NCBI GenBank assembly: GCA_026874595.1
Contig: CM049310.1
Location: 35,155,558 to 35,219,557, forward strand
Origin: Sipunculus nudus
Lineage: Eukaryota; Annelida; Sipuncula; Golfingiida; Sipunculidae
Direction: 5' to 3'
Length of the DNA stretch: 64,000 nucleotides
The notes under the pieces are model-generated. The model worked only from the letters and a program-made list of their open reading frames with translations, did no database searches and had not been told where the DNA came from. Below, piece after piece: positions 9,905 through 54,095 of this stretch; the first letter of the stretch is position 1, and each line of letters begins with the position of its first letter. Made by a program: the position numbers and the translations under genes.

Positions 9905-10660
9905 TGTGTGCATCAGAATGAGAGGAAATTGATGAGTCAGTTGAATAAGACTGAAAGACAGGTGATTTACCTGTGTGGTGTCAGAGTCGGTTGAATTAGA
10001 CAGAATGACAGCTGAATTACCTGTGTGGTGTCAGAGTCGGTTGAATTAGACAGAATGACAGCTGAATTACCTGTGTGGTGTCAGAGTCGGTTGAATTAGA
10101 CTGAATGACAGCTGATTTACTGTGTGGTGTCTGAGTCAGTTGAATAAGACTGAAAGACAGGTGATTTACCTGTGTGGTGTCAGAGTCGGTTGAATTAGAA
10201 AGAATTACAGCTGAATTACCTGTGTGGTGTCAGAGTCGGTTGAATTAGACTGAATGAAGGCTGATTTACCTGTGTGGTGTCAGAGTCGGTTGAATTAGAC
10301 AGAATGACAGCTGAATTACCTGTGTGGTGTCAGAGTCGGTTGAATTAGACTGAATGAAGGCTGATTTACCTGTGTGGTGTCAGAGCCAGTTGAATTAGAC
10401 TGAATGACAGCTGATTTACTGTGTGGTGTCTGAGTCAGTTGAATAAGACTGAAAGACAGGTGATTTACCTGTGTGGTGTCAGAGTCGGTTGAATTGGAAT
10501 GACAGCGGAATTACCTGTGTGGTGTCAGAGTCGGTTGAATTAGACTGAATGACAGCTGATTTACCTGTGTGGTGTCAGAGTCGGTTGAATTAGAATGAAT
10601 GAAAGCTGATTTACCTGTGTGGTGTCAGGGTCTGTTGAATTAGACTGAATGACAGAGAAA
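9905..10660. repeat. 50-bp minisatellite, about 15 copies
   Basis: Units contain GTGTGGTGTCAGAGTCGG then TTGAATTAGA, AGAATGACAGCTG and ATTTACCT, with a 50-bp period (for example starts at 9971 and 10021). Copies differ at a few sites and by one-base deletions. A higher-order pattern is visible: a variant with CTGAGTCAGTTGAATAAGAC recurs near 10130 and 10430. It starts within about 60 bp of the OSTC polyadenylation signal and has no open frame across it. Confidence 0.9.
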
Positions 10661-12866: not shown

Positions 12867-13020
12867 TCAGGTAGCTGGCATGTAATTTGGGTCTAAATAA
12901 TTGTAGTCTCCCTGCATGAAACGCATGTAGTCCCGGTCCATGTGACCCCCAGCGGAAGTGCTTTGGAACCTGATTGGCTCCAGTCGGTGGCTTGAGTTAT
13001 GTGACTCTGTCTCATAGGAA
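12867..13020 (-). CDS. ZZZ3: ZZZ3 exon 7, end of ZZ finger and C-terminus
   Basis: The acceptor is TTGCAG at 13021-13026. The exon supplies the last base of a split serine codon, then zinc ligands H413 and H417 in [11 protein letters not shown]. It continues through [20 protein letters not shown], a conserved ZZZ3 tail, to TGA at 12869-12867. Confidence 0.93.
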
Positions 13021-16000: not shown

Positions 16001-19000
16001 ACCCATGTTTGAACATGAACGAGATTTTTGTCGATATACATCTTCACCAAAGAAATAAAATTCCTATTGTGAATCCTTTTAGAGATATCCCGCTCACAAG
16101 CCCAAAGTTGAAAAATCCAAGAAAAATTCAATAAAAAATCAGAAATTGCAGGTGGCGCCCCCAAACTTGTGCAGCAGGTACAGACTATCAGTCCCAATAA
16201 CCATAGTAAGTTTTGTAAAAATCCACCAAATGGTTTCTGAGTAATAAGCATCTAAGTGTTTTTTCTATAATCAGCTCTAAAACGTAGAAAAATAGGTCAA
16301 GGTCACCCATCTTCGAACTTGACCGAGATTTTGTCAATATACATCTTCTCCGAAAAAATAAAATTCTTACGGTGAATCCTTTTCGAGATATCCCGCTCAC
16401 AAGCCCAAAGTTGAAAAATCCGATAAAAATTCATTAAAAATCGGAAATTGTAGGTGGCGCCACCAAACTTGTATAGCAGGTACAGACTATCAGTCCCAAT
16501 AACCATAGTAAGTTTTGTAAAAATCCACCAAATGGTTCCTGAGTAATAAGCATCTAAGTGTTTTTTCTATAATCAGCTCTAAAACGTAGAAAAATAGGTC
16601 AAGGTCACCCATCTTCGAACTTGAGCGAGATTTTGTCATTATACATCTTCTCCGAAAAAATAAAATTCTTACGGTGAATCCTTTTCAAGATATCCCGCTC
16701 ACAAGCCCAAAGTTGAAAAATCCGATAAAAATTCATTAAAAATAAGAAATTGTAGGTGGCGCCACCAAACTTGTATAGCAGGTACAGACTATCAGTCCCA
16801 ATAACCATAGTAAGTTTTGTGAAAATCCACCAAATGGTTCCTGAGTAATAAGCATCTAAGTGTTTTTCTATAATCAGCTCTAAAATGTAGAAAAATAGGT
16901 CAAGGTCACCCATCTTCGAACTTGAGCGAGATTTTGTCGATATACATCTTTACCGAGGAAATAAAATTCTGACGGTGAATCCTTTTCAAGATATCCCGCT
17001 CACAAGGTAAAAGTTAACGGACGCCGGACGGACGGACGGACGGACGGACAGCTTGGGTGACGACAATAGCCCATCAGCCTAAGGGCTGAGGGCTAAAAAA
17101 AAAACCGCAACCCGTGGGTAAACTGAAAAACCTTTAACCAAAACAAAGTCGGATCGGGTTCGTTGGGGGAAATATGACCCCTCTGATATAATTATTATCG
17201 CCGAGTTACCAATGTAAAACGTAAAGTTAACTTGATTTAAACAACATATTCTACTGAGCGAATTGGTTTTATTTTATTATTATCTCTCAGATTCGAATTG
17301 TTCCCATCATGTATTTTTCACACATTTTATTCCCCTGGTTTTTTTCTCAGATAATTATTTCCTTTGGACAGATCTTCTCAATAGCTATATCAATAATCTC
17401 TGTAGTATAACATTTAAATTTAAATTATAAATCTTGCGAAATTACTTGCGTGAACTCGCCTAGCGTGTATTGAGTTTTCAATTAAAGAGCTTTTATACGT
17501 ACCTCGGGGGAAATCTCCACGATCTTCTCAGTAAAGCAGTTCACTTACTATTTGATAATAAACATGGTTATTACCCTCGTTTGTTAACTTGTTACATCGT
17601 TACTTTCACTGCCCAGTCTCATTCATCCACGATTGGGTTAATTTTATTTCATACATTTGATTGACGTAGAGATGCCCGAAAGTCGGTATTAAAATACCAG
17701 GTATGCATACACACAACATACACCAAAACTCTTTCACAAAATTTTATTTTTCAAGCACTTTTCCAAACCACTCTCTCTTTTTAAGCACCTTTCAAGCCCT
17801 TGAAATTGAAATGACTAAATTCAAGCACTTTTCAAGGTGCGTACGAACCCTGAGCAAGCGACTCCTGAAAAAAGGGCATCAATGTATTCTACGAAAGGCG
17901 AGAAGGTAGGTGGCACCACCTGTCTGGTCTACAAGAGAACTCTCCAAGATGGAAGGACTTGCTAAATTCCAGCCAAATACATTGAACCATTCCTGACATA
18001 GGAACAATATTCACCCAAAGCAAACACATGGACGCCACGTGAAAACGATTACAGATGGGAGTGGCACCACCAGTCTTGAATGAGATGGGAGGTATCCAAG
18101 ATCTTTGGATATGGACAATTTCAGCTCTAACAATGAACCAATCCCTAAGATGAACAAATGGCCACATGAAAATGATTGTAGGTGGCACCACCAGTCTTGA
18201 GTACAAGATGGGAGGAATCCAAGATCTATGGACAGCACGATTTCAGCCCAATACACTTAACCACTCCTGAGATATGGGCTGTTATCAATAAGATACCCAG
18301 ATTGATGCTGCATAAAAAGATTTGCAGGTGGCGCCACCAGTCTTTGAGTTTTACCAGTTACATATAAGAAAATAAGTTTGCTGGGTTTCAGAAAGATCGG
18401 TCCAAGGGTCTCTTTGGAGTTTCCGGAAACACAGTTGGCTCCTTAAATTTCATGAAAACATAGTACTTTATGCACAAACTCAAATATACAATAGACTGAT
18501 AAAGTGACCTGCTTGTGAAAAGTGGTGAAATTTCCATTCAAACTATTAGTTGCTTGACAAATGCATGGGTGGAATAACTCAATTGTTACATTTTCCAGGT
18601 TAGATTCACCCATGGTATTTTAAAGACTACCAGTATACCATCTTTTTATGCTGATGGGGATCAGTGGTTGACAGCAACTAAACTCCCACATCTCCAAAAT
18701 TTTCATTCCTAAATTCCACCTTTAAAACATGCCAGATATGTGCAGTATTATATAACTGATCTGAACTCCCTTTCACCACCCACTTCCAATGCCAGACCTG
18801 CAAGTATTACTCAAGTAACAAATAAGACAACTTCATAAAATAAAGTATTTATAAACCCACCTGTCTGTACAATTATCACAGAAGTCCACAGACACTTCGG
18901 GAAGGCAGTCTACACAGTGCCATCTGGTTCCTAATATTGGCTCACATCCACAGTTATCACACTGAAAATTAACATCCACAGTTATCACACTGCAAAATAA

Positions 19001-22000
19001 CAATACATCCAATTATCCCATGAAAATTGACATCACTATCCAAACTTTTTATAAAACATTGAAAATAACATTACATCCACAGTTATCACACTGAAAATAA
19101 CATCCACAGCTTTCAACCAGGGAACAACATCTTAAGCTGTAACACTGTAAATAACACTGTTATCACTCTGAAAATAACATCCACAGCTATCAACAAGGAA
19201 ACAACATCTACAGCTATAACGCTGTAAATAACACTGTTTTCACACTGAAAATTTTGTAACATCCAAAGTTATCACACTGAAAATAACAATACATCCACAG
19301 TTATCACACTGAAAAAAAACATTACATCCTCAGTTATCACACTGAAAATAACATTACATCCAGTTATCCCATGGAAAATGATATCATTATCCACACTTTT
19401 ATAGAACATTGAAAATAACATAACATCCACTGCTATCACACTTAAAATTACCAAAATAATATGGTATACATAGTTATAACATACCTCCACCAACACCCTG
19501 CATTAAAGCAGACCTTGAATTTAATTAATCCATACCCTGACATAACTGAATTTCATTGAAAACAGATGATACTGAGATGATAAACATAATCTGAAACAGA
19601 TTAAAGCCTATTGCCCATCCTTCCACAGAAGGGCAATGAAAATCATAAAGACATTTGATGATCTTTTTTGTGAAAAGCTTAAAAGAAGATACAGAGATTG
19701 TTTTTTTCAGGTGCTGACTGACTAATGATGAATTAAATTAAGTGTGATGCATGTGATATTAATAGGTTCTAAGCCCACCATCCACCCAGCTCCCTTAAAA
19801 CTGGATTAAAAAATTAAGTTAAACAACTGAGGTAAGTGAGGCCACCCAGAGAGCAGCCATGCCATAACGGGCAAGCTGAGAAGGAGCAGCCATCAGTTTA
19901 GCTCTCATCTTGTATCCTATATGTTGGGTTCCTTGGGAGGGATCAGCCATTAGTTTTTCTCTCACCTTGTATCCTATATGCTGGGTTCCTTGGGAGAGAT
20001 CCGCCATTAGTTTTTCTCTCACCTTGTATCCTATATGCTGGGTTCCTTGGGAGAGATCAGCCATTAGTTTTTCTCTGACCTTGTATCCTATATGTTGGGT
20101 TCCTTGGGAGGGATCAGCCATTAGTTTTTCTCTCACCTTGTATCCTATATGCTGGGTTCCTTGGGAGGGATCAGCCATTAGTTTTTCTCTGACCTTGTAT
20201 CCTATATGCTGGGTTCCTTGGGAGAGATCAGCCATTAGTTTTTCTCTCACCTTGTATCCTATATGTTGGGTTCCTTGGGAGGGATCAGCCATTAGTTTTT
20301 CTCTCCTGATTCTCTTCAGCTTCAGTAGTTCTTTATATTCATCAGTGTTCTTGACAGTGTCTGGGATGTCTTCATCATCCTGTAATGCAAAGTCTTTCAT
20401 ATTACAGCAGTAAACCACCAGTTCTTTATTATTTAAATGTTACAAAGGCTGAAAATCCCATCATCATTAACAGCTGACATGCCAAGGTACCAAGATTTCC
20501 AGGTTATATACCATATTTCAGGTTACTTTTCTGGTCATGAGTTGCTTGGAACATGTTAGTTGCTGCAGAAAACATACCAATTTTATACACCTGCATCATT
20601 TTCTTGTGTTCATTTATGCCCAAGTAGTTTTTGCTAAAAAAATACAGGTAACTGACCTGGTACAAAGTACAAATAATACAAAAAGCATGAAATGAGCAGA
20701 TCAGTGGCTGCATGGTGTATTTTTTAGGTTTTACTTCCTTGACACAAGCAGGCAGACACAGTTTTCCATTAACAAACCATGCTATAAAAATAGAATGAAA
20801 CCTTGTTGTGTCAAAATCGAAGGGACTGGTGCATTTACTTTGACTCAACCAGAGTTCGAGACAACCGTTGTTCATTATATTCAACCTTCTTCAGTGATTA
20901 TTATCGATAAATACTGCACATGTATAGGGCCTATAATAATTCTCACAAATGTTTGCATGAATCCTTTAGGTTTCTTATTATTATTTCTTTTCATTCTTTT
21001 ATTCTATTTAGATGATATCTTTTAGCGTCATAGAATTTCAGAAAAACAGAAAAAAATAGTTTGTGTGGAAGGAGAGATAGAGAGAGAGTGAGAAAGAGAG
21101 AGATTGAGAGAGGTTTATATGGTCTTTACATCAAGCTAACGCTTAGCAGGCCACGACGCCAAAGCTAACAGGACACGAACAATATAAAGGTGAAGCAGTA
21201 GTATTATCTTCCTCCCTTCATACAGAGTCCAGTATGTTTATCCTAGACACATCAAAGGTAAGGATTGGATTATGTTTGGTTTATTAATAACTTTTCTTTA
21301 ATGCTTTGTCGGCGAGAGAAGAAAAGCATGATCATGAGTGACTAATTAGCCAAATAGGTAAACTACGGACTAGGTATGTAAGACATTGCATTGTTGAGCA
21401 AGATCCTTGCCAGTATTAATTATGTAACTGGTCATCGTAGCCGTAGGTATGATTGTTGGACCGTGCACAACTGTCCAAAACATTAAAGCGGCATGACCTC
21501 AAGTCGAGTGACAGACACTTTGCACTTGATGAGTGAGAGCCTTGTAGGTATTAATTAATTATGACTGGTCATCACGGCCCAATCATGATTGACGGGCTGT
21601 GCATAACTATTATCCAAATATGACAAGTTAAGCTGTAGAAATCTTAGCTGGGGACCATTAAAACACTTTGACACATCAGGGTTTTCGACACATCCGACTC
21701 CGACACAAACAGAGTTAACTTAGTCAGGTTTTAACTGTTTTTTGTAGGGACCCCACATTCGACTTTGACACATGTGGGAATTTGACTTAACCGAGTTCGA
21801 CACAACGAGGTTTCACTGTATTATGTTCAACTGAAAAAAAAGATGGGTTAAGCTCCACTTCAAACCCTGAATATCTCTTAATCAACTTTAATATCTGGAT
21901 TAAAAAAAAGTTCTTCAAACTGTTATGTGCAGTAAGTTTCACAATTTGACCCCCTTCATGCACAAGAAACATAAGATATCATAAACAGTGTTATAGCTAG

Positions 22001-25000
22001 ACAAATTTGAGTGCTGGCTAAATTTACAGATGTTGGTGAAGCTAGTGGGGGTGGCCATGTCAGTGGAATCTGTATACTATACACATACTAGTGATGGGTC
22101 CACTTTTATTTAACTCTTAGATATACTAAATGCAAGAATTATTATTTACAACAGCCTTTTAACAGTGGAAAAAATATGCAAATAGTAACATGGTACAGGT
22201 TTTCAAGTGATATTAATGTATTTTTTTTACTATCAAATGTATAAACCATCCTTCAAAAACTGTCAAAAAATTCTCCATGGATTCTTCGGCTCTCCAAAGA
22301 TTCACCGACTTTTAGACAGACCTGTTAAACTGGATCTTTCTTGATCTGCACTGTGATCTTAACTTTGCAATAAGCCATTCACAGAAGGGATTTTAGGGTC
22401 TTCCCAATTTCATTATGTGTAAATTACGATAATGTCAGGTATTTTGACAATCTTTAAGATCTTTTGTGCAGGTCGGTGGGCTGTAAATATTAGACTTGTA
22501 CCCGCTAGCATAAACAGAAAATAGCAGGGTAAAAAAAAAAAAAAAAATTTTAAACTGATGGTTTTTGCACAGGGGGGGGGGGGGGGGGGGCTTCAATATG
22601 ATTTTACTCACAGAAATAACTATACTCTCTGTCACATTACTCGAGACTGGCATACTGAACAGGTCTCCATCCTGACTGCTCCCCGTGAAGCTGCCGCTCT
22701 CCATCTCATCGTCAGACATGTAGACAGGGGGCTGATGGGATAGCAGGAAGGTTGATGCCTGACGGTAAAACTTGTTGTTACGTTGGTGCCTGTGCTGGAT
22801 AATCTAGGTAAACACATGAAGACAGTCACTAGACATTGGAATATTGTTTCAGGACATTCACAACCCAGACCGGAAACACAAACCATCAATTAAATTACAT
22901 GCAAATACCTTTCATATTATTCCTAAAAAGTAGATTATGGTTTGGTCTTAACTTTTACTAATTATGAAATATTGACATAACCCCTGTCACACATTTAGCA
23001 AACATATCATGGAACCTCTTGAGTTACATCAGAACAAAATAACAGGTGCTTTTGATAATAGGCCATCTTCAAGTGTTGTAATGAAGTTTAAATGCAAAAC
23101 AGTAATGAAGTTTAAAAGGAGATTTTCCTTTATTTCTTCAAAGGAATTAAGTCATAGCGACAAAGTTTGGGGTCTGGTAGGAGTACTTATGGACATCTAA
23201 CCATATGCTGAATTTAAAATCTGTGTCCAACGGTGTCAAAGTGTGCCAGTCTAACAGACAGACTGACTGACAGACAGCAATGAACAAAGGGTCATCACTA
23301 TAGTTAAGATGACTTGAAGTTAGCTGAGCTCAATATTTCTGACTGATCTTAATACTTAATATTAAGGCCATCCTGCATTGTTGCCTGTATAAGTGAGTAT
23401 CTACTCCATCAGATGTAGATATAGGAAAGAGCACGTAAATCAAGGAACAATTACATGTTAAATACATGCATATATACTACATTTCATCTTCTGCACTTTT
23501 AACATGGTTTTTCAAGGTGCAGAATGTATGGAATATTGTGCTGCGGATATTTAGAAAAGGCTTCAGAGACTGTAATAATCAGAAGCTGTCATGTATAAAG
23601 CATTGCTCTACCGGTGACTGTGAGGTATCTGAACCTTACCCTTCTGTTGACTATGCCAGCACTAGGGATCCTGCCTGGGACTGGCAGACCAGCCTTGGCC
23701 AGCTTGATGAAATACTTCTGTACTCTACTGGCAACCTGCAACATGATAATCAGGATTTGATAATAGTTATTTGAAATTCAAAACTTTTAAATTTTAGCTC
23801 AGCTGACTGAAAGTCATCTGAGCTATAGCGATCACTCTTTGTCCGTCGTCCGTCTGTCTGTCTGTCCGTCCGTTAACCAGGCACAAATCGTAACCGCTGA
23901 ACCTAGAACCTTGTAACTTGGGATTCTGAGAGGTCCATGAAAAATCTCCTTGGAAACCAGAAATTAGGTCTCTGTTACCCATATCCTTCGAGCTATGGGG
24001 CCCCAAAGTACCCCCCAGAAAAGTCAAAAATTTCATACAAAAACTTCAATATCTCATTAACTACTTGACTGATGGTCATGATTTTTGGCATACATATTGA
24101 TCATGAGATGTTCCATCACTTCCTGCAGACTGGTGGCGCCACCTGTATTTTTTGATTTTTTACAAATTTTTTTCTCTATTTTTGAGACCTTTAAAAATGT
24201 GAACATCTGTTAACAAGGCACAAATCGTAAAGCCTAGACCTAGAATCTTAATTCTTGATACACTGAGAGGTCCATGAAAAATCTCCTTGGAAACCAGAAA
24301 TTAGGTCTCTGTTACCCATATCCTTCGAGCTATGGGGCCCCAAAGTACCCCCCAGAATAGTAAAATATTTCATACAAAAACTTCAATATCTCAATAACTA
24401 CAACACTGATGGTCATGATTTTTGGCATACATATTGATCATGAGATGTTCCATAAGTTCCTGCAGACTGGTGGGGCCACCTGTATTTTTCGATTTTTTTA
24501 CAATTTTTTCCTCTATTTTTGAGACGTTTAAAGATGCTGTCATCTGTTAACGTGGCACAAATCGTAACCGCTGGACCTAGAATCTTCATTCTCGACACAC
24601 TGAGAAACCTATTAAAAGTCTCCGTGGAAACCATAAATTAGATCTCTGTTACCCATATCCTTCGAGCTATAGGGCCCCAAAGTACCCCCCAGAAAAGTCA
24701 AAAATTTCATACAAAAACTTCAATATATCATTAACTACTTGACTGATGGTCATGATTTTTGGCATACGTATTGATCATGAGATGTTCCATCACTTCCTGC
24801 AGACTGGTGGCGCCACCTGAATTTTTCGATTTTTTACGAATTTAAAAATGTGAACAGCTGTTAACAGGGCACAAATCATAAAGACTGGACCTAGAATCTT
24901 CATTCTTGACACACTGAGAGGTCCATAAAAAGTCTGCATGGAAACCTGAAATAAGGTCTCTGTTACCCATATCCTTTGAGCTATGGGGGGCTCCCAATAA

Positions 25001-28000
25001 CCCCCCAGAATAATGGAAAATTTGATAAAAACAAACTGCAACATCTCAATAACTACAACACTGATGGTCATGATTTTTGGCATACATATTGATCAAGAGG
25101 TGTTTCATCAGTACCTGCAGACTGGTGGTGCCACCTGTATTTTTTCAAATTTTCACAATTTTTTTTTCTCTATTTTCGAGACCTTTCAGGATGTAGTTAT
25201 CTGTCAACAGGGTACAAATCGTAAGGACTGCACCTAGAATCTTCATTGTTGACACACAGGGAGACCCATGATAAGTCTCCATGGACACCTGAAATTAGCT
25301 CTCTGTTACCCATATCCTTTGAGCTATGGCACTCCAAAGTACAGCTCAGAATAATGGAAAATTTGATACAAAAGCTGAAGTATCTGAACAACTAATGCAG
25401 AGATCACCATAATTGTTTTCATGGATATTGATCATGGAGTGTTTCATCAGTTTCTGCAGACTGGTGGCACCACCTGTATTTGTTCGGGTTTTTTTTACGA
25501 TTTTTTTCTCTATTTTTGAGACCTTTAAAGTTATGAACATCTGTTAACAGGGTGTCGTGTAATAGGACTTTGTGGAACAGCCCCGCTAGTAACGTGTGCA
25601 CAGGTTGGTGCTACGTCACCGCTTTCTGAATAAAGTTGTGTTCATGGCGCGACGTGTCTGTGGATTTATGACATGGTGGCAGCGGGTTTTTAACCCATAG
25701 ACATTTTTGAACAGACTTTTGGCCTGTCAGTTTATTGACGGAGTATCAGGACGACTTGCAGAATCGTGTGGGCGTCTGATTACATGACCATGCCTGGATT
25801 TCAGCCGCCAGAGTGCTTTGATTTCCAGCATCCGGAGTACTGGCCTGAATGGAAACAGCGGTTTAGCTGTTTTCGGATAGCCACGAAACTTCATAAAGAT
25901 GAGGGTGAAATACAAGTAAGTACCCTGATATATGCCATGGGAAAGGATGCTGAACGTGTATTCAATACATTCACGTGGGATTCAGCAGAGGATCAGAATA
26001 AATACGACGTTGTTGTTCGTAAATTCGATGACTATTTTGTGCCTAAACGCAATGTAATTCATCAGCGTGCATTGTTTTATCAATGTGTTCAGCGGCCCGG
26101 CGAGACAGTCGAGGCGTTTGTTAGACATTTGTATGAACTGGCGGAGTCGTGTGAATTTGGTCCTAATAGAGATGAAAATATTAGAGACCGCATAGTTATT
26201 GGAATAAATGACAAGCAGCTCTCACAAGAACTACAGTTAAAATCTGATCTCAGTTTGGAAGTAGCAGTACAGTTGTGTAGACAGTCAGAGTTAGTCAAGG
26301 CTCAGATAGGGGAACAAGCAGCAGCTGTTGCCCTTGATGATATCAGTTCAGCCAATAGAGAACACCGTTTTGATGCTGCTAGTTTCAATAAACGTCGGGG
26401 AGGTCGTCAGAATCGTGGTCGAGGTCAAGGTCATGCTAAATCAAGTAGTAACACTAGTTTCAAAGCAACTAAACAGGAACATGTAACCTGTGGTAGATGT
26501 AACAAATTTCATGCTAAAGATGCCAGGTGCCCTGCCAGATATGCCAGATGTAACAAATGTCACAGAATAGGCCATTATGCAGTGGTTTGTAAGACCAAGT
26601 CCGTACAGGAGGTGGTTGTACCTGACGCTGACAACAATCCAAAATTCTTGGGCACTGTTTCTGAAGGTGAAGAAAGTACTGTTGACACTGACTGGAGAGT
26701 ACGACTTAACATAGAAGGAAAATTCCTTACCTTTAAGATAGATTCTGGAGCTGATGTGAGTGTGATATCAGAACAGGCTTATCAGAGTCTACGGTGTCCC
26801 CCGTCCCTAGAACCACCTCAAACAGTTCTGAGAAGTGTTGGTGGACAGTTACATTGTCTGGGGTGTTTTGAGACTAAAGTGAATTTTAGAGGGACTGTGT
26901 ATAGAATGATGATGTATGTTGTAACCGGAGCAAACAATTTGTTAAGCCGTAGTGCTGCTGTAGCTATGGAACTGATTCAGTTAAACATACATGATATTGA
27001 TATAGAACAGGAAGTATTTGGAGACCTTGGTCATATGCATTGTGAGCCTGTGAAATTTAAAGTGAAGGCTGATGTTCAACCTTACAGTCAGAGCGTCGCT
27101 CGTAGAGTTCCGATACCCCTCTTACCAAAGGTGAAAGATGAATTGGATCGTATGGAAAAAAATGATGTCATCACTAAGATCACGGAACCTACAGAATGGT
27201 GCAGTCCTATAGTTCCAGTAGTGAAAAAGAACAAGAAAGATGTCCGTATATGTGTAGATCTACGTAAACTGAACAAAGCTATCATTCGAGAGAGATATAT
27301 TCTCCCAACTCTGGATGACTTGCTGCCAAAGCTGGCAGGAGCTAAGATCTTTTCCTCACTTGATGCTTCAAGCGGATTCTGGGCGATTCCGCTACATGCA
27401 GACAGCATGAAGTTGACCACATTTATAACTCCATTCGGGAGGTATGCGTTTAAACGGCTCCCCTTCGGAATAACGTGTGCCCCAGAAATATTTCAGAGAA
27501 AAATGACAGAGCTGCTGGACAGTCACGAAGGAGTTATAGTGTACATGGACGATATTCTCGTGTTTGGCGATTCAATTGAACAACACGACGAAAGACTAAA
27601 GAAAGTGCTTAGTTCCATCTTGAGGTCTGGACTGAAACTGAATAGGTCAAAATGCCTCCTGAGACAGGAGGGTCTTCAATTTCTGGGCCACTGGATTGGA
27701 TCAGAAGGTATTCAACCTTCACCTGATAAAGTGAAGGCCATCGTCAACTTGAAAGCACCTACTGATGTGACGGAGCTGAAAAGACTACTGGGAATGATAA
27801 ACTATCTGGGACGCTATGTGCCCAATTTGGCGACAGTCGCAAAACCGATGAATGATCTCTTGCGTTCAGACTCCGTATGGTGTTGGGGCCCATCACAAGA
27901 AGAAGCTTTTGCTTATGTAAAGAGTGCTTTGACAGATGCTCCATCACTCGCCTTTTACGACGCAAACAAGAAAACGGTAGTTAGCGCAGATGCATCCAGC

Positions 28001-31000
28001 TATGGCCTTGGAGGCGTTCTACTCCAAGAGCACGGGAATGAGCTAAAACCTGTGGCGTTTGCTTCAAGATCTCTCAGTAGCGCGGAGGCCAACTATGCCC
28101 AAATTGAAAAAGAGTGTCTTGCTGCAGTTTGGGCGTGTGAGAAGTTTGCACAGTACCTGTCAGGCCTAGAAACATTTACACTACAAACAGACCACAAACC
28201 GCTTGTTCCATTGATAAATGGAAAAAGCTTAGACCAGGTGCCACAACGATGCCAGCGCCTTCTGATCAGGCTAATGAGATTTAATCCTGAAGCTGTTCAC
28301 ATTCCAGGAAAGCTACTGTTAATTGCAGACACGTTGTCAAGAAGCCCACTGGCAGAAAATACACCTGATCAGGAGTTGGGTGAAGACATCGAAGCTTACA
28401 TCAGTGCCGTCGAAAGTTACCGGCCAATGTCACCTGAGAAATTTACAGAAATCCAGAAAGCTACGGCTCAAGATCTGATATTGACTGAGGCAATTCGTTA
28501 TACCATGTCAGGATGGCCAAGGTACATCCAGGATGTAGCTGAGCCGTTGAGAGTCTACTTTGGTGTAAAAGACCATTTAAGTGTAGCCAATGGTTTGTTG
28601 TTGTTCGACGATAGAATTGTTGTTCCAGGTGTTATGCAAACTGAAATGCTTGACCGGATACATGATGGGCACCAAGGAATCTCTAAGTGTAGAGAGAGAG
28701 CTAAATCTGGTGTCTGGTGGCCTTCTATGAACAAGGAAATTCAGGACAAAGTTAACTCATGCGAGCATTGCCAAACCTATAGGCCAACCCAACGCAAGGA
28801 ACCTTTGATAACTACACCAATGCCAAACAGGCCTTGGGAAGCCATCGCCTCAGATTTGTGTGAATACAAAAGAGAAATGTACTTAGTCACTGTTGACTAT
28901 TTTTCAAGGTACATAGAGATCGCACATCTGCCAGATTCAACAGCAGGAACTGTCATATTGAAACTGAAGTCCCTATTTGCTAGATGGGGAATTCCGGATC
29001 GCCTTATATCGGACAATGGACCACAATATGGTTCAGCTGAATTTGCTGACTTTGCTGCTCAGTATGGGTTTAATCACGACACAACAAGCCCATACAATCC
29101 ACAAGCCAATGGTGCAGTAGAGCGAGCAGTGGAAACTGCTAAGAACATTTTAAGACAGGATGACCCATTCCTAGCACTGTTAGTATACAGAGCAACACCG
29201 AACACGGCAACTGGTTACAGCCAAGCAAAGCTCATGATGGGCAGAGAGATAAAAAGCACATTACCAGTACTTCCAAGGAAGTTAGAGCCTAATTGGCCAT
29301 CTATGGCTAAAATAAAAGAAAAGGACGCACAGACAAAACATGCCTATGAATCTCACTACAACCGTAGGCACGGAGTTCAACCTTTGAACCCTATCTGCCC
29401 TGGCACCCAGGTACGCATAAAAACTGACAATGAAGATTTCTGGACGAAAACAGGGAAAGTGTTAGGTCAGTATAGAGGTAGCAGTAGGTCATACATGGTT
29501 CTCACAGAGCAGGGTCGCACAGTTCGTCGTAATCGTCGTCACATCCGGCCTGTCGCAGAATCGAATGATACCACAGATGCAAACGCAGGAGATCAACACA
29601 ACCCTCCTTCAGAGATACCTTCCGCAGTGGATAGTGGTATGTCAACTGATGATCCGTCCTCGGCGTCTGTTGAATCATCATGTGTTAACCCGTCTGTGAC
29701 TACACGATCAGGACGCCAAGTGAAACCAGTTCAACGACTGGATCTGTAATTGTGTTAGTCATAGGTGCTATTAAGGCTTTATGGGCCAGAATAATGCCTT
29801 GCCGTAATAGCTGTCTGAGATGGACAGTCTACTCCATCTCAGCTCGCAGTTTATTTAGTTTTCTTAGTTTTAATTTAACTCGTTTTATCAGAACCATGAA
29901 CCTTTGGAATATACCAGTGTTTTAACCAGTGCACAGTTATAATTTCTTCTGATGTGCATAGCAAACTTTTTGCCATATAAGACTTTTTTTTTGCGAATGG
30001 CTATATTAAGGTAACCTGGTGATATATCTTGCCTTGTATCATTCTCAAAGGGGGAGATGTCGTGTAATAGGACTTTGTGGAACAGCCCCGCTAGTAACGT
30101 GTGCACAGGTTGGTGCTACGTCACCGCTTTCTGAATAAAGTTGTGTTCATGGCGCGACGTGTCTGTGGATTTATGACACAGGGCACAAATCATTAAAACT
30201 GGACCTAGAATCTTCATTCTTGACACACAGGGAGACCCATGAAAAGTCTCCATGGAAACCTGAAATTAGGTCTCTGTTACCCATATTCTTTAAGCTGTAT
30301 GGCTCCAAATTACCCCCCAGAATAATGGAAAATTTGATACAAAAACTGCAGTATCTCAATAACTACAACACTGATGGTCATGATTTTCGGCATACATATT
30401 GATCATGACCTGTTCCATCAGATTTTTTTTCTCTTTTTTTGATACCTTTAAAGATGTGGTTATCTGTCAACAGGGTACAAATCGCAACAACTGGTCTCTG
30501 TTACCCATATCCTTCAAGCTATAGGACTCCGAAGTATCCCTCAGAATAATGGACAATTTGATACAAAAGCTGAAGTATCTGAACAACTAATGGGGAGATC
30601 ACCATGATTCTTTGCATGGATATTGATGTTTGTAAGTGTTTTGATTAGTTTCTGCAGACTGGTGGAGCCACCTGTATTTTTGTACCCGCCAAAATGAAGT
30701 TTTGTGGATACTATGTTTTTGACCGGGTTCCTCCGACGTTGCCGCGTTCATTTCCAGAGAGCTCCTCTGGGACTTGATTTTATCAGCTTTCCAAGCTCAT
30801 ATCTCGGGAACCGTTTGACTGATCAGGAAATAAAATTTATACTAATGTAGCCCTTGGATAGCTCTATAACATACACAAAAAATGGTGGCGCCACCTGTAA
30901 CCATGTTTGCACAGTGTCCATCTGTTCATCTGCCTTTGGTTAAAATCACTCGTATATCTGCAGTGAATTGACTAATTCACCTGAAATTCGGCATGCGTAT

Positions 31001-34000
31001 ACATCCTGGATAGTTTTCTTGATTTTATGACAGGTGGCGCCACCTACATTCTCATTCACACTGATGACATCCAAGCTCATATTTCAGGAACCGTTTGACC
31101 GATCGGGCCAAAATTTTGCATGTGTATAGATCTAACATAGCTCTTTATCATACACAAAACTGGTGGCACCACCTGCAACCATTTTTGCACAGCGTCTGTC
31201 TGTTTGTCTGCCGTGCAATAAAGTCCCTCACATCTTGGCAGTGGTTTGACATATCTGCCTAAAATTTTGCAGTTTTATACATCCTGGATAGCTTTCTTGA
31301 CTTTATGACAGGTGGCGCCACCTTTATTCTAGTTTATGCTGCAGACATCCAAGCTCATATCTCAGGAACCGTTTGAACGATTGGGCCAAAATTTTGCATG
31401 TGTATAGATCTCACATAGGTCTTTATCATACACAAAACTGGAGGGGCCACCTGCAACCAATTTTGCACATTTTGCACAGCGTCTGTCTGTTGGTCTGCCG
31501 TGGCCTAAAATCACTCATTTCTCTGTAGTGGTTTGACATAACTGCCTAAAATTATGCAGGTTTATACATCCTGGATAGCTTTCTTGATTTTATGACAGGT
31601 GGCACCACCTACATTCTAGTTAACGCTGCACACATCCAAGCTAATATCTCAGGAACCATTTGACTGATTGGGCCAAAATTGTGCTTGTGTTTAGCTCTCA
31701 CATAGGTCTTTATCATACACAAAACTGCAACCATTTTTGCACAGCGTCTGTCTGTTTGTCTGCCGTGGGCTAAAATCACTCATATCCATGTAGTGGTTTG
31801 ACTTTTCTGCCTAAAATTTTGCATATGTATACAACTTGGACAGCTTTCTGGATTTGTGGTAGGTTGCACAACCTACATACACATTTAGGCTGCAGACATT
31901 CATGCTAATATGCAACATACCTCACTCTGTTTCCCCTTGCCACTCAATCCATGCCTCACTTCACTCTGATTTTGGCAGATAAACGTAGTCACTTGTCGGC
32001 TACCCGTATTCTAGTTTTTAAAGTTTACACATTTTTTCTCTATTTTTCAGATATATAAATACAGACTAAATCTTGGCCTGTTGGTTAATCTGTTTGATGC
32101 TTCAGTTGAATGGGTATCTACCATTCTGATGATAAAATTTCCTTTTGTGAATCTCTTCCCAGTCAGCTTAGCGTCATGACCCATGGGTCACTTGTTAATA
32201 ATTATTGTAAATTAGAATTATTCTGATATTCATATTACAGCAGCTTCTTAATATGGTGGGTGTCTGTTAACTTGCAAACCTACATGGTCTCTTCCTACCT
32301 CACTTACATGACTGTGCAGTGGAAACAAAATAGGAAAATATAGGAGATTAAAGCCTAAATGCTGGAAAATGCAGCATTATAAGAGACAATTTTTTCATGG
32401 AAACATCTACAAAGTCTTCATATGCTCTGATGATATCACAACTTGAACATTAAAGCTGCAATGAATAGAACAAGTTGGTTGCAGGTGGCCCCTCCAGTTT
32501 TGTGTATGATAAGGACCTATGTGAGATCTATACACATGCAAAATTTTGGCCCAATCGTTCAAACAGTTCCCGAGATATGAGCTTGGATGTCTGCAGCATA
32601 AACTAGAATAAAGGTGGCGCCACCTGTCATAAAATCAAGAAAGCTATCCAGGATGTATAAAACTGCAAAATTTTAGGCAGATATGTCAAACCACTGCCAA
32701 GATGTGAGTGACTTTATTGCACGGCAGACAAACAGACAGACGCTGTGCAAAAATGGTTGCAGGTGGTGCCACCAGTTTTGTGTAAGATAAAGAGCTATGT
32801 TAGATCTATACACATGCAAAATTTTGGCCCGATCGGTCAAACGGTTCCCGAGATATGAGCTTGGATGTCATCAGCGTGAACGTGAATGTAGGTGGTGCCA
32901 CCTGTCATAAAATAAAGAAAGCTATCAAGGATGTATAAAACTGCAAAATTTTAGGCAGATATGTCAAACCACTGCCGAGATATGAGTGACATTATTGCAC
33001 GGCAGACAAACAGACAGACGCTGTGCAAAAATGGTTGAAGGTGGCGCCACCAGTTTCGCGTATGATAAAGAGCTATGTTAGATCTATATACATGCAAAAT
33101 TTTGGCCCGATCGGTCAAACGGTTCCCGAAATATGAGCTTGGATGTCATCAGCGTGAATGAGAATGTAGGTGACGCCACCTGTCATAAAATCAAGAAAGC
33201 TATCCAGGATGTATACGCATGCCGAATTTCAGGTGAATTAGTCAATTCACTGCAGAGATATGAGTGATTTTAACCAAAGGCAGATGAACAGATGGACACT
33301 GTGCAAACATGGTTACAGGTGGCGCCACCATTTTTTGTGTATGTTATTGAGCTATCCAAGGGCTACATTAGTATAAATTTTATTTCCTGATCAGTCAAAC
33401 GGTTCCCAAGATTTGAGCTTGGAAAGCTGATAAAATCAAGTCCCAGGGGAGCTCTCTGGAAACGAACGCGGCAACGGCGGAGGAACCCGGTCAAAAACAT
33501 AGTATCCACAAAACTTCGTTTTGGCGGATACAAAAATACAGGTGGCTCCACCAGTCTGCAGAAACTAATAAAAACACTTACAAACATCAATATCCATGCA
33601 AAGAATCATGGTGATCTCCCCATTAGTTGTTCAGATACTTCAGCTTTTGTATCAAATTGTCCATTATTCTGAGGGATACTTCGGAGTCCTATAGCTTGAA
33701 GGATATGGTTAACAGAGACCTAATTTTAAGTTTCCACAGGCACTTTTCATGGGCTTTCTTGCATGACAAGAATGAAGATTCTAGGTCCAGTTGTTGCGAT
33801 TTGTACCCTGTTGACAGATAACCACATCTTTAAAGGTATCAAAAAAAGAGAAAAAAAATCGTAAAAATTTGAAAAAAATAGAGGTGGCGCACCCAGTCTG
33901 CAGAAACTGATGGAACAGGTCATGATCAATATGTATGCCAAAAATCATGACCATCAGTGTTGTAGTTATTGAGATACTGCAGTTTTTGTATCAAATTTTC

Positions 34001-37000
34001 CATTATTCTGGGGGGTAATTTGGAGCCATACAGCTTAAAGAATATGGGTAACAGAGACCTAATTTCAGGTTTCCATGGAGACTTTTCATGGGTCTCCCTG
34101 TGTGTCAAGAATGAAGATTCTAGGTCCAGTTTTAATGATTTGTGCCCTGTTAACAGATGTTCATAACTTTAAAGGTCTCAAAAACAGAGAAAAAATTCGT
34201 AAAAAAAACCCGAACAAATACAGGTGGTGCCACCCAGTCTGCTGAAACTGATGAAACACTCCATGATCAATATCCATGAAAAAAATTATGGTGATCTCTG
34301 CATTAGTTGTTCAGATACTTCAGCTTTTGTATCAAATTTTCCATTATTCTGAGCTGTACTTTGGAGTGCCATAGCTCAAAGGATATGGGTAACAGAGACC
34401 TAATTTCAGGTGTCCATGGAGACTAATCATGGGTCTCCCTGTGTGTCAACAATGAAGATTCTAGGTGCAGTCCTTACCATTTGTACCCTGTTGACAGATA
34501 ACTACATCCTGAAAGGTCTCGAAAATAGAGAAAAAAAAATTGTGAAAATTTGAAAAAATACAGGTGGCACCACCAGTCTGCAGGTACTGATGAAACACCT
34601 CTTGATCAATATGTATGCCAAAAATCATGACCATCAGTGTTGTAGTTATTGAGATGTTGCAGTTTGTTTTTATCAAATTTTCCATTATTCTGGGGGGTTA
34701 TTGGGAGCCCCCCATAGCTCAAAGGATATGGGTAACAGAGACCTTATTTCAGGTTTCCATGCAGACTTTTTATGGACCTCTCAGTGTGTCAAGAATGAAG
34801 ATTCTAGGTCCAGTCTTTATGATTTGTGCCCTGTTAACAGCTGTTAACATTTTTAAATTCGTAAAAAATCGAAAAATTCAGGTGGCGCCACCAGTCTGCA
34901 GGAAGTGATGGAACATCTCATGATCAATACGTATGCCAAAAATCATGACCATCAGTCAAGTAGTTAATGAGATATTGAAGTTTTTGTATGAAATTTTTTA
35001 CTTTTCTGGGGGGTACTTTGGGGCCCAATAGCTCGAAGGATATGGGTAACAGAGATCTAATTTATGGTTTCCACAGAGACTTTTAATAGGTTTCTCAGTG
35101 TGTCAAGAATGAAGATTCTAGGTCCAGCGGTTACGATTTGTGCCACGTTAACAGATGACAGCATCTTTAAACGTCTCAAAAATAGAGGAAAAAATTGTAA
35201 AAAAAATCGAAAAATACAGGTGGCCCCACCAGTCTGCAGGAACTTATGGAACATCTCATGATCAATATGTATGCCAAAAATCATGACCATCAGTGTTGTA
35301 GTTATTGAGATATTGAAGTTTTTGTATGGAATTTTTTACTATTCTTGGGGGTACTTTGGGGCCCCATGGCTCGAAGGATATGGGTAAGAGAGACCTAAAT
35401 TCTGGTTTCCAAGGAGATTTTTCATGGACCTCTCAGTGTATCAAGAATTAAGATTCTAGGTCTAGGCTTTACGATTTGTGCCTTGTTAACAGATGTTCAC
35501 ATTTTTAAAGGTCTCAAAAATAGAGAAAAAAATTTGTAAAAAATCGAAAAATACAGGTGGCACCACCAGTCTGCAGGAAGTGATGGAACATCTCATGATC
35601 AATATGTATGCCAAAAATCATGACCATCAGTCAAGTAGTTAATGAGATATTGAAGTTTTTGTATGAAATTTTTGACTTTTCTGGGGGGTATTTTGGGGCC
35701 CCATAGCTCGGAAGAATATGGGTAACAGAGACCTAATTTCTGGTTTCCAAGGAGATTTTTCATGGACCTCTCAGAATCCCAAGTTACAAGGTTCTAGGTT
35801 CAGCGGTTACGATTTGTGCCTGGTTAACGGACGAACAGACGGACAAACGGACAGACGGACAACGGACAAAGAGTGATCTCTATAGCTCAGATGACTTTCA
35901 GTCAGCTGAGCTTAAAAAGGAGCTTCTATCCTTAAACCATCTGCAGAGTTAAACTTGACATTTTACTCCCTACATGGGTTTTTTTTTTCAAGTCTAACAT
36001 CGTCTCAGCTCTTTGGACCCTTTTGCCACCACAATCACTAAATATCCATTCTTATAATACCTAGATGTTAACATTCAAGACTTCTGCTCATTACTATATA
36101 GATGAGAAAGCAGCTATGCAGACTCAAGTTAAATTGTACAAACATGAAAGAGTGTGCTAAAATAATACAACATTTTGGTTCCCATTTAAGAATATATACT
36201 ATTACCACCAGCTGTCAGAAATTAGTATGCAAAAAGCAAAAAATAAAAATTTTTGTCTGGCAGTGGTTTCCTTTGATAAAAAGTATAAATACTAGACATT
36301 GGCATCAGGAGGGCAGAGCTGCTATCAATACCTAACCTGTTGAGTTGTCCTATTTCCCAGGGCTTTAGCTATCTTCTTCCAACGACGAGCCTCTACTTCT
36401 TCTGGAGGAAACTCGACCAGGAGCTGCTCGAGGCGCCGCTGTTCCTCTGCTGTCCACAGCTGGTTGAACGTGGCTGACTTGGTCTGGTCCTTGACTCGAC
36501 CTCTAACCACAAAACCCATCGATGGACAGATGTCAACCATGGTGGATGAAGAAGGACAAGGTTTTGCTGGTTTAAAAAGAAATGTAAAAATATATTCACA
36601 ACATAGTTTTATAATCATTTTCTAGCATGCACATCCAACTGAAGGTAAAAAACTGAACTCTGAATGTAGGGGATGTGTTGTGTCGTTCATGACCTTTGAT
36701 ATCATGAAAGCCATTGATTTGGTTTCACAGATTTCCTGGTGTGTGGCAAGAGAAGTACTAGTTATTCTACAACTTCTCTTCCTGGTATTATTTAACTATT
36801 TCTTTAACTTATCAGATATATAATTTCTAAACCAGCACTATGACAGGACAGATGTAAATTTTTTTTCTCAAATTTCTGACCACATAAAAAGTCCAAAATC
36901 ACTCACTCTCAATATTTTCAACATCTCCTGTTTTCTTATTGCGTGTTTGGTGGTGATGGGATTGGAGCAATGGACCCTCAGTCCCTGACATGTAATTCTC

Positions 37001-40208: not shown

Positions 40209-43200
40209 ATGCGGATCACTGGCAGCGTGGGCTTCATCACAGGGGGCGCCAGAGGGCTGGGCAGGGGGTTCGCAGAGCTGCTGCTAGAAGAGGGAGGCAA
40301 GGTAAGCGCTGTGTACAGGTAAACGGAGGGGAAGAATGAAAACCGCATGAACTGGCGTAAAATCTGTGTTATTAAAGTAAAATACAGTGTCAAACATATA
40401 CTGTGTCAAAACAGCAAATATATCCATCATGTTTTATGATCCTGGTAATTATGAATTATCATGCTTTTTTAAAGAAAAATGCCAGTAAAGCAGAGTAATA
40501 AACGAATTATGTGTGTATATATATATTTATATATATTACTGTATTGTACTGCACTCTTTGCTGTGTTAATTAACTAAACAAGACTATCAGGGTATGCATA
40601 ACTTTATATATGTATTGGAGAACTTCAATATAACTTTTAAAGTAATGATGAATAATTCATTTACCCTTCATTGGCTGAAACTACCCTTTCCAAGTTGATA
40701 TAGCATTTGTAAGAACTAATTGGAACCCGTGTTAATTTCAAATAGAAAAATTACACTATCACATTTTATAATAACAATATTAACAAATTATGTGCATGCA
40801 TCTTCCCAGATGTTAAGGTATAATTTGCACATTTCATTTTTGGCTTGTTCTGTGGGCCAGCAGTAATTCTTCCTGCCCTATCTCAGACAGAACAATTAGG
40901 ATGAATGGCAACCCAGAGGCCTCCTTTAGTTCATGTCCCAATTTACAAGCAGTATAAAGATAATATGTAAGCTAATGAAGGTCTCTTATACTGAGATACA
41001 CTGTCTTTTGATAGAAGCAGGGGGAGGGTCCAGGGGGTCCAGATCCCCCTTTTTTAGCCGTTGCAAACTTTATTTAGGCAATTCCTGCCTACTTTTGGAG
41101 TCTGGACCAGGCCTTTTCTGGACCTGGGGACCTTTTTTTCAGGTTTTCTCATTAGTCCTCCTGGGTTAGACCCTCCATTTCCTAAATCTTGGATCTGCCC
41201 CTGTTTAATTATTATTCTTTTAAACTCTGTAACAATCATGAAATTCTTTACCTCACAGGTGTGTCTAGCTGATATCGATACAGACCAGGGCAGGGAGACA
41301 GAACAGGAATTAAAACAGAAATATGGTTCAGACTGTGTCATGTTTGTCCGTTTAGATGTCACGAAAGAACAAAATTTTTCAGGTTTGTAAACAGTCAAAT
41401 CTATAATTCATATTTAAAATAATTTATGAATGTTGAAAGTTAGGAGCAGACATGTATAATAAAATGTGATTAAGTCAAAGACAGCATCAATGTCAAGTCT
41501 TACTATTGATCAAACAGGAAAGCTACTTGGTTTCACATAAGGGTAAATTTGTTGAGGCGAATCTAGCAAAGCTTGACACAACAATTTAACTGAAAACCAT
41601 TATTTAAAGTATATTCTAATATATTTTTCAATTTAATTTGTTAAAATATAAATATATATATATACAAAAAAAAAGAGTGACACCTTTTAGATAGACTTGT
41701 TTATTAAAAAACAAGTGAATCCATCTCAAAGGTGTCACTCTTTCTCTTTACCTACACTTCTACTACAGACTAACATGGCTGTACCATTTATATATAAATA
41801 TATATACCATCTCAGTTTAGTGACCATCACAAAAGAATGACCACTTGTTCACGGTTCTGATTGAATTTTGCCCTTTATACAAACCTCGCTCAAATGACCA
41901 CCTTGAAAATGCAACCACATTAACAAGGTCCCCTGTGAGGTAGTAATTTTGAGGTTTATTATATATATATTTATAACTGTATCCGCCAAAACAGAGTTTT
42001 GCGGATACTATGTTTTCAGTCCGCCGCTGCCGTCTCCACTGCCACCGCCGTCTCGGCGGCCGTCTCGGCTGCCGTCTCCGCCATCGCCGCATAGATTTCC
42101 ATAAACTCCTCCGTAACCACTGGCAGAATTTTTCGAAATTCGGAATTATGATCTGGTCACATGTGACCTGCTGCGCCCTCATTTTTAAGTTGACCTCTGA
42201 CTTTTCCTCTTTGCCCAGCATCCATTTGTGCGTCTTATTCCATACATAAACCCACATATCTTAGGAACCACTTGACAGATCAGGCTAAAAATTTTGCACA
42301 AATGTAGCCCTTGGAGAGCTTTATAACATGCATTAAAATGGTGGCGCCATCTGTAACCATTTTTGCAAAGCGTCCATCTGTTCATCTGCCTTGGGAATAA
42401 ATCACTCATATCTCTGCATTTGTTAGACTTATACACCTGAAATTTTGCATGTGTATACATCCTGGACAGCTTTCCTGATTTTATGGCAGGTGGCACCACC
42501 TACATTCACGTTAACCCTGCAGACATTCAAGCTCATATCTCGGGAACCATTTGACCTATTGGGCCAAAATTTTGCATGTGTACAGATCTCATTTAGCTCT
42601 TTATCATACGCAAAACTGGTGGTGCCACCTGCACCCATTTTTCCACAGCGTTCATCTGTTCATCTGCCTTCGGATAAAATTACTCATATCTCTGCATTGG
42701 TTACACTTACACACCTGAAATTGTGCATGTGTATACATCCTGGACAGCTTTCTTGATTTTATGACAGGTGGCGCCACCTATGTTCACGTTAAGGCTGCAG
42801 AAATGCAAGCTCATATCTCGGGAACTGTTTGACTGATAGGGCCAAAATTTTGCATGTGTATAAATCTCACATAGCTCTTTATCATACGCAAAACTGGTGT
42901 GCCACCTGCTACCGTTTTTGCACAGCGTCGATCTGTTCATCTGGCTTGGGATAAAATCACTCTTATCTTAGCAGTGGTTTGACTTATACACAGGTTTTGC
43001 AGGTTTATACATCCTGGACAGCTTTCTTGATTTTATGACAGGTTGCGCCACCTTCATTCAAGTTTATGCTGCAGACATCCAAGCTCATATCTCGGGAACT
43101 GTTTGACCAAAATTTTGGATGTTTATAAATCTCACATAGCTCTTTATCAGACGCAATACTGATGGCGCCACCTGCAACCATTTTTGCACAGCGTCAGTCT

Positions 43201-53853: not shown

Positions 53854-54095
53854 GTTCCTTTCGTAGAAAAATCAAAATTTCACTCATGTTCCTCTCTTAG
53901 AGACGTCAAAACATCCAGGCTTTGTCTTACTCATGTTCCTCTCGTAGAAACGTCAACACTTCTAAGCTATGTCATACTTCTGTTCCTCTCATAGAAACGT
54001 TAAAACATCTAGGCTATGCCATACTCCTGTTCCTTTCGTAGAAACGTCAAAACATCTAGGCTATGTCCTACTCATGTTCCTCTCGTAGAAAAAGG
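53854..54095. repeat. 47-bp tandem repeat, about 5 copies
   Basis: Units TGTTCCTCTCGTAGAAACG, TCAAAACATCTAGGC and TATGTCATACTCA, starting at 53887, 53934 and so on. Copies differ by a few bases. Confidence 0.85.

Follow-up and report, generated by a model that had tools for sequence, protein, structure and literature searches.

The analysis concerns a 64,000-nucleotide stretch of the Sipunculus nudus genome (the window; assembly GCA_026874595.1, contig CM049310.1, positions 35,155,558 to 35,219,557), in which a minus-strand gene was identified as ZZZ3. One phase 0 intron of this gene (18962..20250, minus strand, taking the first donor and the last acceptor) carries a tandem array at each end. 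With a probability of about 0.72, we conclude that two unrelated minisatellites grew from the two junctions of this single intron through ordinary repeat growth.

Two arrays on the junctions of one ZZZ3 intron

The Myb/SANT exon of the gene was recognized by a Pfam profile match to PF00249. The ZZ exon (18861..18961, minus strand, 101 nt), with its first base at 18961 and the true acceptor AG at 18962-18963, scored 22.1 bits against PF00569, just above the cut-off of 21.4, and the top two matches among solved structures were both human ZZZ3 (2fc7 and 6e83). The upstream exon (20251..20379, minus strand) encodes 43 residues, the last of which were aligned to the human protein, and its first donor lies at 20250. 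In human ZZZ3, QHVGFK and CDNCG are contiguous, and they align without a gap to QHIGYK and CDNCG across the worm junction. Since this gapless match spans the junction, the exon text is older than the arrays.

The donor-side array (19883..20305, minus strand) comprises 7.4 copies of a 57-bp unit with 94% matches according to Tandem Repeats Finder (TRF). Each of its seven full copies holds the exon end plus the donor, ...GGATACAAG/GTGAGAG or a variant of it, where the slash marks the splice junction. Four copies read AAG/GTGAG (20250, 20136, 20022, and 19965), two read AAG/GTCAG (20193 and 20079), and one reads AAG/ATGAG and is thus devoid of the GT (19908), all on the minus strand. As 57 bp correspond to 19 codons, the donor copies are in frame, and a 206-codon open frame (19819..20439, minus strand) passes through every copy of the array. 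All six choices of a GT donor are open and in frame, adding between zero and five units of 19 residues ahead of the ZZ finger, and a ladder of isoforms is possible. The final decayed copy contains the acceptor-like sequence CTCCTTCTCAG at 19875 on the minus strand, with a score of 7.3; hence, the donor array now has both donor-like and acceptor-like sites.

On the acceptor side, the 18-nt core TTTTCAG/TGTGATAACTG was scanned for on the minus strand of region 18800-20400, allowing up to six mismatches. It was found in 14 places including the true site, all within 18961-19440. Four cores are exact (18961, the true one, together with 19090, 19308, and 19341), two have one mismatch (18989 and 19276), two have two mismatches (19167 and 19244), and the remaining six have three to six, with the AG missing from three of these (19371, 19194, and 19020). 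The exact 18-mer occurs four times in the 1.43-Gb genome, every time at this locus, while the reversed control did not occur at all. Based on TRF and the core scan, these 14 recognizable cores make up a decayed array of about 500 bp (18944..19448, minus strand), in which TRF reported arrays at 18944-19034, 19073-19354, and 19232-19448 plus overlapping rows. The last unit of the array is the true acceptor copy TTTTCAG/TGTGATAACTGTGGATGT (18944..18968, minus strand), of which 18 nt (18944-18961) are exonic. In the copies at 18989, 19090, and 19308, the exon match extends over the same 18 nt (TGTGATAACTGTGGATGT) and then ends. In the ten upstream cores that carry the AG, the first base after it is 18989, 19090, 19144, 19167, 19221, 19244, 19276, 19308, 19341, and 19440 on the minus strand. 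With the true site, the eleven cores with an AG are separated by six intervals of 23-33 nt and four of 54-101 nt. There are also two larger internal duplications, whose copies agree in 81/96 and 76/85 aligned columns.

The sequence-only reading had described about six repeats of the acceptor and exon start upstream of the ZZ exon. All six upstream positions it named are present, yet they belong to a decayed array rather than a clean set of six copies, and the array begins within the ZZ exon instead of upstream of it. Its reading of the 19341 copy as TGT GAT AAC TGA was verified in the sequence. Every one of the 25 upstream AGs in 18962-19460 runs into a stop, so the upstream acceptor copies are predicted to be non-productive and at best decoys, in agreement with its view that they do not serve as isoforms.

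The claim that both arrays were seeded on the exon-intron junction also held, because each array includes the real junction and the human comparison places the exon text first. The concern that a repeat might have existed before reaching the junction is in part answered by the same comparison. Likewise, the proposed independence of the two arrays was borne out: their units share no same-strand sequence, with a best same-strand local alignment of 5 nt, and their decay differs, with 94% matches at the donor end versus 62-78% in the 27-32-bp rows and 85-88% in the larger 65- and 77-bp rows at the acceptor end. Unrelated units and unequal decay argue for two events rather than one.

Accordingly pictured, each array would have grown by slippage or unequal exchange, at different times, from a short stretch straddling its junction. 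Both would have extended into the intron, where alone extra sequence would be tolerated as long as one intact junction remained. At the acceptor end, a working protein would come only from the last copy (18961), and the copies upstream would be decoys, either neutral or mildly deleterious. For the donor, each of the six GT copies would lead to an in-frame protein with its corresponding number of repeats. In a genome this rich in repeats, both ends of one intron could be hit without any special process.

Splice-site strength and copy divergence

Splice sites were first chosen with a generic matrix, and an own-genome matrix was then built from 38 acceptors and 35 donors among those sites, so that the scores are rough. 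The true acceptor at 18961 scored 8.0, compared with an own-genome acceptor median of 10.7. Four of the ten upstream acceptors scored above it, namely 19276 (10.1), 19308 (8.4), 18989 (8.3), and 19341 (8.2), while six scored below it: 19167 (6.7), 19221 (4.9), 19090 (4.8), 19144 (4.1), 19440 (2.6), and 19244 (1.8). The four GTGAG donors were equal at 9.8 and the two GTCAG donors scored 4.7, against an own-genome donor median of 8.8. Outside the acceptor array, the intron holds acceptor-like sites by score at 19590 (10.5) and at the above-mentioned 19875, and, at 19484, a donor-like site with a high score of 11.4.

The branch-point consensus is yUnAy, and ATAAC fits four of its five letters. 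The sequence TGATAAC is present in several acceptor copies, and in the copy at 18989 its A sits 20 nt before the true AG. An acceptor copy could therefore act as the branch point for the next copy. Taken together, effects of the arrays on splicing are possible, as far as can be judged from the DNA.

The divergence among copies was compared between the splice core and the rest of the unit in the 57-bp array and in a 65-bp array at the kinase locus L038 described below. Changes amounted to 3/54 in the core versus 9/288 in the rest for the former (p =.41), and to 1/72 versus 24/448 for the latter (p =.23). The L038 copies were selected by the exact donor string, which all ten copies contain, and one copy that is truncated where the stretch ends was excluded. 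Decay of decoys as a signal of selection was thus not detected as a rate difference between core and rest in these two arrays of few copies, and nothing in these few copies points to selection acting either to keep or to remove them.

Repeat load, sampled junctions, and rival explanations

The repeat load was estimated from 20 evenly placed 10-kb stretches of C1-C4, counting periods of 10-100 as minisatellites. The sample contained 46 minisatellite arrays covering 4.97% of 200 kb, and all tandem repeats together covered 13.47%; for the whole genome, Table 5 of PMC10212961 gives 13.24% of TRF tandem repeats. Across 40 kinase exon regions, minisatellite coverage was 4.55%, and locally repeated text made up 7.1% of the upstream flanks, 9.1% of the downstream flanks, and 0.8% of the exon interiors.

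These 40 exon regions were also the source of a junction sample. From 138 kinase matches, with 136 of 959 candidates scored, 60 were picked by eye as short, stop-free, and covering a partial domain, and 40 of them were used. The resulting 80 exon ends were reduced to 73 by dropping seven with an unconvincing site (the donors of L037, L054, L062, L063, and L066, and the acceptors of L048 and L059), and the acceptors of L045 and L057 were repositioned by eye. Each junction was tested in two overlapping test windows and each intron point in a single one, a bias that favors junctions. Only one of the 73 junctions, the L038 donor, lay inside a junction-spanning repeat (95% interval 0.03-7.4%), compared with 28/428 intron points, 0/115 points in exon interiors, and 60/591 points in the evenly placed stretches. 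The comparison of junctions with intron points gave p =.10, and that with exon interiors p =.39. Both ZZZ3 junctions were detected by the repeat test as positive controls. At a rate of 1/73 and assuming independence, about 0.02% of introns would be hit at both ends, which corresponds to about 38 for an assumed 200,000 introns; taking the intron rate instead raises the number to about 850, and the lower bound of the interval brings it below one.

Several sampled loci show comparable arrays. The L038 protein-kinase exon (C4:93861113-93862546, minus strand) ends ...SEPYSTK, and its donor ACTAAG/GTAGATAC is repeated in an array comprising 9.7 copies of a 65-bp unit. At L070 (C3:96799726-96801120, 1225-1344), the donor of a second kinase exon, which ends ...CGTPEYLAPE and which we take from its motifs to be AGC-like, is tripled in a 49-bp array of 2.4 copies as GTAAGG, GTTAGG, and GTAAGG; this donor is a bystander outside the 73 junctions. 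At L057 (C11:54655538-54656890, approximately 320-603), decayed repeats of the acceptor text CTGTATTGTAACTTTCAG lie upstream of a presumably Aurora-like kinase exon, again judging by motifs. The repetition is confined to the intron side and falls under the ungapped repeat threshold. L045, which had been flagged at its acceptor edge, was rejected as an acceptor-bearing array, as its 120-bp repeat stops about 45 nt before the acceptor.

The sequence-only reading had held that two such arrays in one intron are hard to ascribe to chance. This part was not supported, because the genome is rich in minisatellites, other junction-bearing arrays turned up in the sample, and junctions were no richer in arrays than nearby intron points. 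Chance is not excluded, and the present numbers do not bear out the call for anything beyond it. Two points weigh against ordinary repeat growth as the explanation. Triple clusters of AGGTAAG with a start-to-start spacing of 22-51 numbered 2543 (1124 + 1419) genome-wide versus 996 (442 + 554) for the reversed pattern, which was the sole control, a 2.6-fold excess from which arrays could favor donor motifs; these matches overlap and many lie inside a few large arrays, so they are not readable as array counts. Single AGGTAAG occurred 31 times versus 28 reversed in 264 kb on both strands. In addition, the junction sample is small, as its wide interval indicates.

The same cluster excess, together with the finding of several junction-bearing arrays within a small sample, speaks for the idea that splice junctions are preferred seeds of minisatellites here, through a property of junction DNA or through transcription, and that introns hit at both ends arise from that bias. 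The junction sample points in the opposite direction, and we consider this idea improbable. Somewhat less improbable, but still unlikely, is that the copies are kept for function, with the donor array serving as a ZZZ3 isoform ladder in 19-residue steps and the acceptor array tuning or delaying splicing, for instance through unproductive transcripts. The unit of 19 codons with a frame open across all copies fits such a role, as do the four donors tied above the own-genome median, the four decoys that outscore the true acceptor, and the variable sites of the first six copies, of which three are synonymous and one is not (a small number, read by eye). Nevertheless, a near-identical array whose unit length is a multiple of three stays open unaided once its first copy is open, no difference in the rate of change was detected between the splice cores and the remaining positions of the unit, and the other six scored upstream acceptors are weaker than the true site.

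Birth of the intron from a tandem array, that is, intron gain by tandem duplication, might be suggested by repeats bounding the intron at both ends. Since the arrays have no common sequence, one array cannot have given both splice sites, and we regard this origin as highly implausible, weakened as it is by the 5-nt alignment. Similar copies at many loci, as expected of an introner or other mobile intron element, were not found, the exact acceptor core being seen at this locus only. When the peptide of the two exons was searched against the genome, eight of nine matches were this locus and one was a weak match on C4 (E = 0.086), presumably another ZZ domain; none of the nine was a retrocopy or paralogue showing the spliced ZZZ3 junction. 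An Rfam search returned no matches.

Ordinary repeat growth thus remains the preferred explanation, and the both-ended case alone does not need a new mechanism. It would be most useful as a starting point for counting such cases across the genome of this repeat-rich worm. We tentatively suggest, at less than even odds, that S. nudus minisatellites routinely capture junctions, at a rate on the order of 1%, leaving thousands of exons with donor or acceptor arrays. As in ZZZ3, units whose length is divisible by three would yield isoform ladders and other units decoys, making the genome a natural system for studying how splice sites are chosen and how intron boundaries drift. A genome with recurrent sites of equal strength at fixed spacing would allow the choice of the spliceosome among identical sites and the shift of intron boundaries to be measured, and gene models close to such arrays may be wrong.

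Other features of the window were recorded. As read, the ZZZ3 coding sequence occupies the minus strand between about 37200 and the stop codon at 12867. The last exon (12867..13020, minus strand) had no Pfam match at E 0.01; we assume from its position and from ZZZ3 motifs that it belongs to the gene, and the remaining exons were presumed to do so from such motifs. Past the stop codon, about 14.6 copies of a 50-bp unit form an array (9934-10655), many units of which read CACACAG/GTAAAT or GTAATT on the minus strand. No exon was seen on reading the sequence at this array or at a 47-bp array (53882-54091), and no exon search was made at either. A single open frame of 1336 codons (25739-29749, plus strand), which by its motifs we take to resemble Gag-Pol of a Ty3/gypsy-type element, is directly preceded by an array of 337-bp units (23872-25549). 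Arrays of 278-338-bp units at 30858-31911, 32476-33355, 33532-35828, and 42335-43614 have the TRF consensus core GGTGGCGCCACC or GGTGGCACCACC in common, and the 278-bp units were found in both orientations.

Comparison with known systems

Multiplication of splice sites by minisatellites is already known in human genes, so that the kind of event is not new. A minisatellite of splice donors in IFI6 was reportedly described by Turri, Cuin and Porter in 1995. In human IFI6 (IFI-6-16, G1P3), a minisatellite supplies several donors, and downstream units are used in the mRNA, according to the portion of PMC4526556 available. ZZZ3 resembles IFI6 in that its splice donor is multiplied by a short tandem repeat lying on the boundary between exon and intron. 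Both the acceptor and the donor units contain the splice site and the adjoining exon, and the junction within the arrays belongs to a genuine coding exon, as judged by the PF00569 and human ZZZ3 matches. Unlike the IFI6 case, which is human, concerns the donor only, and has mRNA evidence, the ZZZ3 intron is hit at both ends and is read from the DNA. A limited survey of titles and abstract openings in the open-licence literature yielded no description of one intron with both its acceptor and its donor expanded.

Intron gain by tandem duplication was reportedly treated by Zhuo in 2007. It is also the subject of PMC4974935 and PMC2891723, in the excerpts of these papers. In that process too, duplication creates or moves splice sites, whereas ZZZ3 presents an existing intron with multiplied sites and no new intron is shown. 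Closer in form are the minisatellites, with units of about 30 bp on average, that De Grassi and Ciccarelli (2009) described at exon-intron boundaries of human segmental-duplication genes, where they alter splicing (PMC2812944, in part). The position on the boundary is shared, but the human case concerns novel introns in recent paralogues, while in the worm the acceptor and the donor of one gene were each multiplied. The polyubiquitin gene UBC, as presented in the available text of PMC10809524, contains a tandem array of dual-specific splice sites. Like UBC, ZZZ3 has a splice site per tandem unit and a ladder of products, which in ZZZ3 is only possible; in UBC, each site is donor and acceptor at once and the repeat corresponds to an entire protein, whereas each ZZZ3 unit carries one kind of site.

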